A DNA stretch of 64,000 nucleotides, taken from NCBI RefSeq assembly GCF_900169785.1, contig NZ_FWER01000019.1:223-64222 (forward strand), written 5' to 3'. Within the stretch, counting starts at the first letter, position 1. Each line of letters begins with the position of its first letter. Below the pieces are notes generated by a model. That model saw only the letters and a program-made list of their open reading frames with translations, made no database searches and was not told where the DNA came from. The position numbers and the translations under genes were made by a program. This document shows positions 23,203 to 63,859 of the stretch, one piece after another. The DNA is from Rhizobium sullae (GTDB lineage Bacteria; Pseudomonadota; Alphaproteobacteria; Rhizobiales; Rhizobiaceae).

Positions 23203-23278
<76 letters not shown>

Positions 23279-61118: not shown

Positions 61119-61691
61119 TCACATTCCCTGCGGGCCGCGGTTCATGGCCGCGATGCCTGTGCGGCAGACTTCGATCAGGCCGAGCGGCTTCATGATCGCC
61201 ACGAACTGATCGATGTTCGAGGACTTGCCTGTGATTTCCAGAATGAAATGCTCGACGGTCGCATCGACTACTTTGGCATGGAAGGCATCGGCAAGACGCA
61301 ACGTCTCGGCGCGCGTTTCGCCGGTCCCGACCACCTTGACGAGCGCCACTTCCCGTTCGATCGGCCGCTCCTGCCCGAGTTCGCGGGCGCGCACCGTCAG
61401 ATCCACGACGCGATGCACCGGCACGATGCGCTCGAGCTGCGCCTTGATCTGCTCCAGCACATGCGGCGTACCGCGCGTCACGATGGTGATGCGCGACAGA
61501 TGCGCCTGATGCTCAGTTTCGGAGACCGTCAGACTTTCGATGTTGTAGCCCCGGCCGGAGAAGAGGCCGATGACGCGGGCAAGGACGCCTGGCTCGTTAT
61601 CGACGAGGATCGAAAGGGTATGGTTCTCGGCGGCTGCGGTTTCCGGCGAGATGAAGTAGGCGGAGCCTGTCGGCTGTAGATGTGCGTTCAT
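61119..61691 (-). CDS. ilvN: Acetolactate synthase regulatory subunit
   Basis: 190 residues from the ATG at 61691 (MNAHLQPTGSAYF). ACT domain about residues 25-100: HTLSILVDNEPGVLARVIGLF, SGRGYNIESLTVSETEHQAH; the C-terminal domain (EREVALVKVVGTGETRAETL) follows. It confers feedback inhibition by valine. It is 25 bp downstream of the large-subunit gene and shares its leader. Called ilvH in some rhizobial genomes. Confidence 0.95.
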   Translation of the reverse strand: MNAHLQPTGSAYFISPETAAAENHTLSILVDNEPGVLARVIGLFSGRGYNIESLTVSETEHQAHLSRITIVTRGTPHVLEQIKAQLERIVPVHRVVDLTVRARELGQERPIEREVALVKVVGTGETRAETLRLADAFHAKVVDATVEHFILEITGKSSNIDQFVAIMKPLGLIEVCRTGIAAMNRGPQGM

Positions 61692-61716
61692 TGTCTTGGC
61701 TTCCTCACCTTCGATA

Positions 61717-63510
61717 TCAAACGAGCTGACGGCCCTTGGCGTCGATCGCATTGGCGACCGCTTCGTCCGTGGCTTCGTCCGGCAGCAGCATCTCGTTATG
61801 CGCCTTGCCCGACGGGATCATCGGGAAGCAGTTGGCGAGATTGGCGACGCGGCAATCCAAGATGACCGGCTTTTTCACGTCGATCATCTCCTGGATCGTA
61901 CCGTCGAGGTCATCCGGCTTTTCGCAGCGCAGGCCGACGGCGCCATAGGCCTCCGCCAGCTTCACGAAGTCCGGCATCGCCTCCGTATAGGAGTTGGACA
62001 GCCGGTTGCCGTGCAGCAGCTGCTGCCACTGGCGGACCATGCCCATGTATTGGTTGTTCATGATGAAGATCTTGATCGGCGCATTGTGCTGGATCGCCGC
62101 CGACATTTCCTGGATGCACATCTGGATCGAGGCATCGCCGGCAATATCGATGACGAGGCTTTCGGGATGGGCGATCTGCACGCCGAGCGCTGCGGGCAGG
62201 CCGTAACCCATCGTGCCGAGGCCGCCCGAGGTCATCCAGCGGTTCGGCTGTTCGAAGCCGAAGAACTGCGCTGCCCACATCTGATGCTGGCCAACTTCGG
62301 TGGTGATGTAGGTGTCGCGGTCCTTTGTCAGTTCATAAAGACGCTCGAGCGCGTATTGCGGCATGATGACGTCGTTACTCTTCGTGTAGGCGAAGGAATT
62401 GCGCGCGCGCCAGCGTGCGATGCTCGTCCACCAGTCGGAAAGTTGGCCCTTCTCCGGCCTCTTCGGCAGGGCACGCCACAGGCGGACCATGTCTTCCAGC
62501 ACGTACGCGACGTCGCCGCGGATGGGGATGTCGACGCGAACGTTCTTGTTGATCGAGGACGGGTCGATGTCGATGTGGATCTTCTTGGAATTCGGTGAGA
62601 AGGCATTGATGCGGCCGGTAATGCGGTCGTCGAAGCGGGCGCCGATGCAGACCATGACGTCGCAATCGTGCATCGCCATGTTGGCCTCGTAGGAACCATG
62701 CATGCCGAGCATCTTCAGCCAGTTTTTGCCGGAGGCCGGATAGGCGCCAAGGCCCATCAGCGTCGAAGTGATCGGGAAGTCGGTGAGTTCCACCAGCTCG
62801 CGCAGTAGCCTGCAGGCTTCCGGACCGGAATTGATGACGCCGCCGCCGGAATAGATGACAGGACGGCGCGCATTGGCCATCAGCTCGATTGCCGCATGAA
62901 TCTGGTTGAGATCGCCCTGGAGTTTCGGCTGATAGCTTCTCTGAATCGTATGATCGGACGGCGGCGTATAGGTGCCTGTCGCGAACTGGACGTCCTTCGG
63001 AATATCGACGACGACCGGGCCGGGCCGGCCGGACTGGGCGATGCGGAAGGCTTCATGGATAACGGCAGCGAGCTCGTTGACATCCTTGACCAGCCAGTTG
63101 TGCTTGGTGCAAGGCCGCGTGATCCCGACGGTATCGCATTCCTGGAAGGCGTCTGAACCGATGAGCGAGGTCGGCACCTGGCCGGTGAGGCAGACGAGCG
63201 GGATCGAATCCATCAGAGCGTCCTGCAGCGGCGTGACGGCATTGGTTGCACCCGGACCGGAGGTGACCAGCATGACGCCGACCTTGCCGGTCGAGCGGGC
63301 ATAGCCTTCGGCGGCATGGCCGGCGCCCTGCTCATGGCGGACGAGGATATGCTTGATCTCGTCCTGCTGGAAGATCTCGTCATAGATCGGCAGCACGGCG
63401 CCGCCCGGATAGCCGAAGAGATGCTCGACACCGTTGTCCTTCAGCGCCCGCAGAACGATTTCCGCTCCTGTCATCCGATTGTCTGCCGTCTGCTTGTCCG
63501 TGCCCGTCAT
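61717..63510 (-). CDS. ilvB: Acetolactate synthase catalytic subunit
   Basis: 597 residues. Thiamine diphosphate enzyme: catalytic Glu region FGYPGGAVLPIYDEIFQQDE, domain contacts TSGPGATNAVTPLQDALMDS, ThDP-Mg motif IDIAGDASIQMCIQEMSAAI followed by MNNQYMGM. It makes acetolactate and acetohydroxybutyrate, the first common step of branched-chain amino acid synthesis; ilvC at 36.4-37.4 kb carries out the next. Upstream lies an attenuator with a leader peptide. Called ilvI in some rhizobial genomes. Confidence 0.97.
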   Translation of the reverse strand: MTGTDKQTADNRMTGAEIVLRALKDNGVEHLFGYPGGAVLPIYDEIFQQDEIKHILVRHEQGAGHAAEGYARSTGKVGVMLVTSGPGATNAVTPLQDALMDSIPLVCLTGQVPTSLIGSDAFQECDTVGITRPCTKHNWLVKDVNELAAVIHEAFRIAQSGRPGPVVVDIPKDVQFATGTYTPPSDHTIQRSYQPKLQGDLNQIHAAIELMANARRPVIYSGGGVINSGPEACRLLRELVELTDFPITSTLMGLGAYPASGKNWLKMLGMHGSYEANMAMHDCDVMVCIGARFDDRITGRINAFSPNSKKIHIDIDPSSINKNVRVDIPIRGDVAYVLEDMVRLWRALPKRPEKGQLSDWWTSIARWRARNSFAYTKSNDVIMPQYALERLYELTKDRDTYITTEVGQHQMWAAQFFGFEQPNRWMTSGGLGTMGYGLPAALGVQIAHPESLVIDIAGDASIQMCIQEMSAAIQHNAPIKIFIMNNQYMGMVRQWQQLLHGNRLSNSYTEAMPDFVKLAEAYGAVGLRCEKPDDLDGTIQEMIDVKKPVILDCRVANLANCFPMIPSGKAHNEMLLPDEATDEAVANAIDAKGRQLV

Positions 63511-63575
63511 GTTTTCTGTTCCATTTTGACTGCTGGGATTGAGGTCTTTGGTGCGGATGCCTGGATTTCAGGCAT

Positions 63576-63599
63576 AAAAAAAGGCCCCAGAGGGAGCCT
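63576..63599 (-). terminator. ilv leader terminator hairpin
   Basis: Minus strand: AGGCTCC, loop CTCT, GGGGCCT (arms 63593-63599 and 63582-63588, one G-U pair), then seven T (63576-63582). It is the terminator stem of the ilvB-ilvN attenuator, about 70 bases before the ilvB start. Confidence 0.85.
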
Positions 63600-63606
63600 G
63601 TCATCT

Positions 63607-63656
63607 AGCGCATGGGTGGCTGTCGCCGGATGGTTACACCATCCTGCCCATGCGCT
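63607..63656 (-). promoter_or_regulatory. ilv attenuator long hairpin
   Basis: Outer arms AGCGCATGGG and CCCATGCGCT (63607-63616 and 63647-63656), 10 bp, perfect; inner arms GGATGG and CCATCC (63628-63633 and 63639-63644), 6 bp, perfect. The leader peptide codons from about 63634 to 63660 lie inside it, so a ribosome moving through or stalling on the upstream Val-Leu-Ile-Val-Val codons decides whether it forms, as in classic attenuators. Confidence 0.8.
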
Positions 63657-63690
63657 TTCCCACCACAATAAGAACCGCTGCGATTTTCAT
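63634..63690 (-). CDS. ilvB leader peptide
   Basis: 18 residues, MKIAAVLIVVGKRMGRMV, from ATG 63690 to TAA 63634. Residues 6-10 are Val-Leu-Ile-Val-Val, the control codons of branched-chain attenuation. No ribosome-binding site precedes the ATG. A promoter TTGACG-17-TATCAA (63727-63699) places transcription start at about 63690-63692, essentially on the ATG, so the leader mRNA is probably leaderless, as known for the trp leader of Sinorhizobium. Confidence 0.85.
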   Translation of the reverse strand: MKIAAVLIVVGKRMGRMV

Positions 63691-63698
63691 GGGCGCAA

Positions 63699-63727
63699 TT
63701 GATAGACAGAAAATTTCACAGCGTCAA
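63699..63727 (-). promoter_or_regulatory. ilvB promoter
   Basis: Minus strand -35 TTGACG (63727-63722), 17-base spacer, -10 TATCAA (63704-63699). The start of transcription 6-9 bases downstream falls on the leader ATG at 63690. Prediction from sequence only. Confidence 0.6.
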
Positions 63728-63859
63728 CGCTTGCCGAAATAAAAAATCGGCGCCCGGCGCACCATGCCGCGTCGGCTATCCCATTAAGAAACAAGGTCCC
63801 GGAAGGATTTTGTTAAAGGATAAATCATAGGATTGCTGGCTAACGTAGGGAGTGGGCCG

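Follow-up and report, generated by a model that had tools for sequence, protein, structure and literature searches.

The control region of ilvBN in the window (the whole stretch of 64,000 nucleotides that was analysed) is very probably a ribosome-mediated transcription attenuator with a leaderless leader mRNA, and most genomes of the genus carry a paralogue of it. Read along the minus strand from 63727 to 63576, a promoter is followed by an 18-codon leader, nested hairpins and a terminator with a T-run, and then by ilvBN (Table 1). The leader begins with an ATG at 63690-63688, the end of its stop codon is at 63634, and V-L-I-V-V are its codons 6-10. Two marks of an ilvBN attenuator are present: a run of Val, Leu and Ile codons in the leader and an intrinsic terminator between the leader and the gene, with 65 bases separating the end of the T-run from the ilvB ATG (63510). 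Folding of the element gave a z of -3.3, and 1 of 200 shuffled sequences was equally stable. A scan for consensus promoters between 63000 and 64000 listed none; TATCAA was missed because the scan rule requires T at the last -10 position. The true start of ilvN may be an internal Met. Two other features lie close by, a terminator-like hairpin with a T-rich tail (63748-63764, minus strand) just upstream of the leader promoter and a plus-strand open reading frame (63316-63702) that overlaps the attenuator element.

Table 1. Features of the ilvBN control region and the genes behind it (window coordinates).
Feature	Position	Strand	Basis or remark
-35-like box TTGACG	63722-63727	-	Read from sequence
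-10-like box TATCAA	63699-63704	-	Spaced 17 bases from the -35 box and 8 bases from the leader ATG
Leader open reading frame, 18 codons and stop, MKIAAVLIVVGKRMGRMV	63634-63690	-	Read from sequence
Outer stem A, 9 pairs, GCGCATGGG (63655-63647) with CCCATGCGC (63616-63608)	63608-63655	-	Folding and covariation
Inner hairpin within the outer stem	63628-63644	-	Contains the leader stop codon
Intrinsic terminator and T-run	63576-63599	-	Terminator 63599-63582, T's to 63576
Small hairpin ATGCCTG-AAATC-CAGGCAT	63557-63575	-	Immediately 3′ of the T-run; by eye
Match to Rfam RF02502 Atu_C8 (Rhizobiales sRNA)	63567-63688	-	123.2 bits, E 4.8e-28, model positions 1-122 of 122
ilvB, acetolactate synthase large subunit	61717-63510	-	NCBIfam PRK09107, 1229.7 bits
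ilvN, acetolactate synthase small subunit, behind ilvB	61119-61751	-	PRK11895, 221.4 bits, from residue 42

The element matches RF02502 over the whole model and well passes its gathering threshold of 50 bits. The model starts at the third base of the leader ATG and ends just past the T-run; the sole other Rfam match at gathering score in the whole window is a tRNA (23206-23278). The anatomy put forward in the original prediction, an 18-residue frame with V-L-I-V-V, nested hairpins and a terminator, was thus confirmed by the sequence, by folding and by the family match, although its description as a complete attenuator was too strong, a convincing antiterminator not having been found. Under search filters strict enough to lose weak matches, every one of the 148 genus genomes has an RF02502 match (two or more copies in 118, one in 30), and so do 161 of the 297 genomes sampled from the order, 49 of which exceed the gathering score. 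An ilvB-like reading frame lies 3′ of the attenuator in all 42 further order-wide matches that were fetched (L168 included). In L166 and L181, about 2.7 kb separate a pair of ilvB-like genes, each of which has an attenuator match of its own. When 48 sequences selected from the fetched loci were aligned, 95.4% of the outer-stem cells proved to be paired, and 8 of the 10 pairs of this stem vary on both sides. Taken together, the outer stem and the terminator are 94.4% paired, compared with 83.3% in shuffles, and have 90 double-change cells, compared with 26.4 in shuffles. All 25 distinct 18-codon ilv leaders of the genus have L-I-V-V at codons 7-10. Leader codons, outer stem and terminator are conserved in relatives, and compensatory changes accompany the pairing.

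The promoter spacing would place the transcription start on the leader ATG, as in the leaderless rnTrpL of Sinorhizobium, and no purine-rich ribosome-binding site was seen between the -10 box and the ATG. This spacing is kept in relatives: of 50 distinct ilv-type upstream regions, 42 have TTGAC starting 35-38 nt ahead of the start codon, 6 have it 54-60 nt upstream, and 2 lack it in the 60 bases examined, the rows being high-scoring matches plus genus loci, exclusive of the 42 order-wide loci, and not an order-wide fraction. The corresponding distance is 35-37 nt in all 52 distinct transporter-type regions, which belong to the second copies described below. When a fair -10 box was also required, the leaderless distance was found in 40 of 50 ilv-type and 10 of 52 transporter-type regions (shuffled controls, 112/8000 and 58/8000); few of the latter pass because most carry TAGCT at the -10 place. 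Shine-Dalgarno-like four-mers precede the start in 7 of 50 ilv-type regions and in none of the 52 transporter-type ones. Six ilv-type regions have their -10 box 25-30 nt from the start, and all six have such a four-mer, so leaderless initiation is not essential for the attenuator class. The ilvB leaders of family f6 (L069, L071, L076-L080) mostly have GTG starts and a Shine-Dalgarno-like site, with a longer untranslated region in the six in which a -10 box was recognised. An upstream start that gives the window leader a short untranslated region and conventional translation would resemble these f6 leaders, with their four-mer and a start codon 25-30 nt after the -10 box, and would agree with a window -10 box that is poor and was missed by the scan; given the spacing kept in 42 of 50 regions and the stretch between that box and the ATG, where no ribosome-binding site was seen, we consider it very improbable. 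Two other leaders of the same genome have a similar arrangement by eye: a -10-like box lies 8 nt before the ATG of the trp leader upstream of trpE (MKRSLNIAVWWWAR, L146), the same distance as in the ilv leader, and 7 nt before the ATG of a leuA leader with LLLL (L148). Leaderless leaders may therefore be general in this genome. In the portions of the reports that were available, the Sinorhizobium trp leader RNA starts on its own ATG (PMC7298713, PMC10117765), and 171 leaderless starts were mapped in Sinorhizobium, with 'ilv' absent from the main text (PMC3616915). A leaderless ilv leader mRNA, as originally predicted, is well supported at the level of sequence. As a novelty it is a plausible addition to a known kind of attenuator, and one that is less new than had been supposed, a Corynebacterium precedent existing in the available part of one report (PMC11857589).

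RNA polymerase would most likely initiate at the leader ATG or no more than 2 nt away, and ribosomes would load at the 5′-end of the RNA without a ribosome-binding site. With plentiful charged Val, Leu and Ile tRNAs, the ribosome would reach the stop codon inside the nested hairpin and block the outer stem, so that the terminator folds and an RNA of about 115 nt, of the Atu_C8 family, is released. When these charged tRNAs are scarce, the ribosome would stall at the V-L-I-V-V codons, immediately before the outer stem, which would then form and hinder the terminator, and more transcripts would read through into ilvBN. The edge of a ribosome stalled at codons 6-10 would fall at the beginning of the outer stem or slightly short of it, and a ribosome at the stop codon would cover the 5′ side of that stem. 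From this geometry the outer stem should mark the stalled state. An antiterminator detectable by equilibrium folding was rejected for the window sequence, in which the terminator won from every successive ribosome edge with a probability of 0.99-1.0; the same folding of the second copy in this genome lowered that probability to 0.81 at two edges. Folding without the 3′ arm of the terminator lengthened the outer stem weakly, by pairing through the Gly codon. The corresponding candidate antiterminator, Gly codon GGA with terminator UCC, was 61.7% paired in the 48 sequences, compared with 59.4% after shuffling (32/500 shuffles equal), and its covariation score was reached by 62/500 shuffles; the Gly-codon extension as antiterminator is a weak idea. 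Attenuation of ilvBN, in itself not new, is supported by the anatomy and the conservation, and our confidence in it comes from the conserved codons and the known systems, not from an antiterminator that was found.

The original prediction also proposed that a short RNA is released, perhaps one with activity in trans. Release gained indirect support, through the match to an Rfam family that is typed as sRNA and whose model covers the expected product. A stronger version would make the RNA mainly a trans-acting sRNA that also attenuates ilvBN. RF02502 is filed in Rfam as an sRNA gene, and trpDC is a trans target of the Sinorhizobium trp attenuator RNA according to the available portions of the reports (PMC7143759, PMC7298713). 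The sequence 3′ of the stop codon is also highly conserved in transporter-type leaders: in 42 distinct leaders of equal length, this part is 98% conserved per site, compared with 67% in the promoter spacer, and the unpaired linker that it includes is 88-100% conserved. Conservation nevertheless also tracks the branched-chain amino acid codons, the pairing and the terminator, and in the loci read the element always precedes acetolactate synthase or a transporter gene. Conservation and gene context are weak evidence either way on this question, and a mainly trans-acting function appears improbable.

The second RF02502 match in this genome (C123:39271-39391, L002:1499-1611; 112.9 bits; leader MNITMVLVVVMERMGRMV) does not precede an amino acid biosynthesis gene but a gene for a 414-residue, Bcr/CflA-like MFS transporter. 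Among 20 genus loci that were fetched, this MFS gene was 3′ of the attenuator in 12 (one cut by the contig end) and ilvB in 8. Scanning named genomes by transporter alignment gave 64 loci, 50 of which have an attenuator within 500 nt upstream. Going by the titles of their records, 53 of these loci are from Rhizobiales. The attenuator is present in 50 of the 53; the exceptions are L126, which has no upstream sequence, L135, and L145, whose transporter match is partial (33%). An Rfam search found no RF02502 in the 11 transporter loci outside Rhizobiales, nor in L135 and L145. The named carriers of the attenuator-transporter pair are Rhizobium, Mesorhizobium, Phyllobacterium and one record called Martelella, and two RF02502 matches in f6, another family of the order (L064, L065), also stand before an MFS gene, whose product is 49% identical to that of this genome. 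Across the genus, 79 of 148 genomes have the transporter at E <= 1e-120, with more than 500 bits in 75. All 75 have at least two attenuators, and the 30 one-copy genomes contribute none of the 75 (Fisher p 1.4e-11, kinship ignored; adjacency was read directly in the fetched loci only). Three of the four genomes with a weaker transporter match (405-470 bits) have one copy of the attenuator. Transporter matches with one internal stop codon (G141:C15, G044:C5, G078:C9, G056:C5 and G104:C793) may represent decayed genes or errors of assembly.

The idea that all second copies stand before such a transporter was rejected. Two-copy genomes lacking a strong transporter match number 43, and in all 25 that were checked an ilvB paralogue (ilvB2) lies behind the second copy. 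One such paralogue scores 638 bits with TIGR00118, above the cut-off, and no ilvN was noticed among the listed open reading frames of five ilvB2 loci, as for a lone ilvB paralogue. Two genomes have three copies; the additional copy lies before another MFS gene in L194 and before an ilvB paralogue in L193. The MFS gene behind the third copy in G051 (L194:1501-1619) is a different one, with 70.8 bits to TIGR00900, below the cut-off.

A tree of 65 leaders places the 17 leaders of the window type (ilvB1) on one side of a branch (99/96, with the bootstrap not settled); transporter and ilvB2 leaders lie together, poorly resolved, on the other side, and L194 stands weakly beside ilvB1. In a subset, the alignment of transporter and ilvB2 loci extends through the untranslated region and about 16 codons, which suggests that the control region of an acetolactate synthase gene was captured. 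With codon shuffles as the control, resemblance to the ilvB2 start reaches p <= 0.05 in 15 of 44 distinct transporter starts (11 at p < 0.02; best z 9.5) and the other 29 have p > 0.05, the own copy L002 included (p 0.44), these 44 rows being related and not independent. Several of the matching starts retain a Q/R-M-T-G-like string, the start of the conserved part in ilvB, and the direction suggested by these sequences is therefore from ilvB to the transporter. The transporter probably took the promoter, the attenuator, the untranslated region and the first codons of an ilvB paralogue. A homologue on a Rhizobium etli plasmid (49% identical over 73% of the query) has an RF02502 match that resembles, by eye, the other ilvB2 subtype, which suggests a second capture. 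As an origin of the fusion, a deletion between neighbouring ilvB2 and transporter genes was considered and rejected; such adjacency was not seen in the five ilvB2 loci (L245-L249) whose sequence was followed farther downstream.

The attenuators of this second type share a further feature. Their terminator loop and 3′ arm (CUGACGGGGC) are complementary to a conserved segment downstream of the terminator (GCCUCGUCAG); in L002 the partners are 1594-1603 and 1632-1641. The ilvB1 copy in the window does not have this segment. Duplexes of -15 kcal/mol or lower were predicted for 51 of 52 transporter and 26 of 26 ilvB2 loci, and at most 5 of 100 shuffles were as good in 46 of 52 and 24 of 26, respectively. 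The same two counts are 1/47 and 0/47 for ilvB1 of the genus and family, and 17/61 and 3/61 for ilvB across the order. L125 and L131 appear to change both partners of the duplex, the segment is absent in L092, and the third-copy locus L194 does not have a strong duplex. Since the segment is transcribed only past the terminator, it should not stop termination. Its pairing with the terminator could act on the read-through mRNA, relaying the state of the attenuator to translation; alternatively, the released short RNA could bind the read-through mRNA in trans through the segment. Sequestration of the ribosome-binding region by the segment had a median z of -1.3 in transporters (7 of 46 at the 5% level) and of -2.5 in ilvB2 (10 of 14), and a predicted link between the two regions is only suggestive. 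The combined proposal, in which an attenuator duplicated together with an ilvB paralogue was captured at least twice by transporter genes, once in the main Bcr/CflA-like clade and once by the Rhizobium etli plasmid homologue, and the pairing of terminator and segment relays to translation or acts in trans, strikes us as rather unlikely as a whole.

What the captured element would control depends on the function of the transporter. The protein of this genome scores 171.7 bits with TIGR00710 (Bcr/CflA efflux), below the curated cut-off of 200.9, and 136.6 bits with Pfam MFS_1 (PF07690), which it matches; it is therefore called Bcr/CflA-like only. Its best solved relative is EmrD. It could import a branched-chain amino acid, a keto acid or a related nutrient, in which case induction during branched-chain amino acid shortage would follow a logic of supply. 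All 45 distinct transporter leaders retain Val at codons 9 and 10 although the third bases change synonymously, and a homologue on an Agrobacterium plasmid (47% identical over 73% of the query) has a TPP riboswitch (L254:1261-1377), another control of the starvation type, directly upstream and no attenuator match. The weaker NCBIfam matches, all below cut-off, include a nucleoside transporter and a rhizoferrin importer. Uptake is quite possible on these grounds, but its chance is kept just short of even by best models that describe drug efflux and by the solved relative. The transporter could instead expel inhibitors of branched-chain amino acid synthesis or of Val or Leu tRNA charging, the attenuator then serving as a sensor of inhibition. 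Bcr/CflA pumps are the closest family models, a Pseudomonas plasmid homologue with no RF02502 match has genes for MATE efflux and for an aminoglycoside phosphotransferase in its vicinity, and Bacillus bmrCD, as described in the available part of the report, is a drug pump under ribosome-mediated attenuation (PMC4191407). The homologue behind the TPP riboswitch points instead to nutrition, and we regard efflux as a tentative possibility. In L135, a TPP riboswitch (734-836) lies about 1.1 kb upstream of the transporter homologue.

The element in the window belongs to a known kind of attenuator, to which it adds a likely leaderless start; the more novel part is the second copies outside the window. 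These suggest that an amino acid attenuator left biosynthesis and took over transporters, carrying the start codon region along. Both the transporter substrate and the possibility that a single RNA hairpin governs termination and translation are thereby made testable. Among the papers listed by a literature search, with subscription papers mostly outside its coverage, no report of a branched-chain amino acid attenuator before a rhizobial MFS gene was noticed. The ilvB leader peptide and the branched-chain amino acid attenuators of alphaproteobacteria were reportedly treated by Vitreschak et al. 2004. In the accessible portion of Corbino et al. 2005, the alphaproteobacterial ilvB leader peptide is called 'previously described', with a citation of Vitreschak et al. 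2004; the gene and the leader peptide are those found here, and neither the leaderless geometry nor second copies are mentioned in that portion (PMC1273637). RF02502 is like the window element in sequence, structure and extent, but it is typed as sRNA and its table holds no link to ilvB. The available parts of the reports on Sinorhizobium rnTrpL/peTrpL describe a similar leaderless leader reading frame within an attenuator RNA, with the differences that the codons are those of Trp and that trans action is reported there, whereas the ilv element is known here from its sequence (PMC7298713, PMC10117765, PMC7143759). The ilvBNC operon of Corynebacterium glutamicum has, in the portion of the report that could be consulted, a branched-chain amino acid leader, transcription that begins one nucleotide from the leader start codon, and a short ilvL transcript; a trinucleotide exchange between terminator and antiterminator is supported by mutations there, whereas the analogous pairing is unsupported here (PMC11857589). 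The Bacillus subtilis bmrB-bmrCD system, again from the available part of its description, is alike in placing ribosome-mediated transcription attenuation before a transporter, but it senses antibiotics through a 53-residue leader, whereas the branched-chain amino acid leader found here was probably borrowed from an acetolactate synthase gene (PMC4191407).
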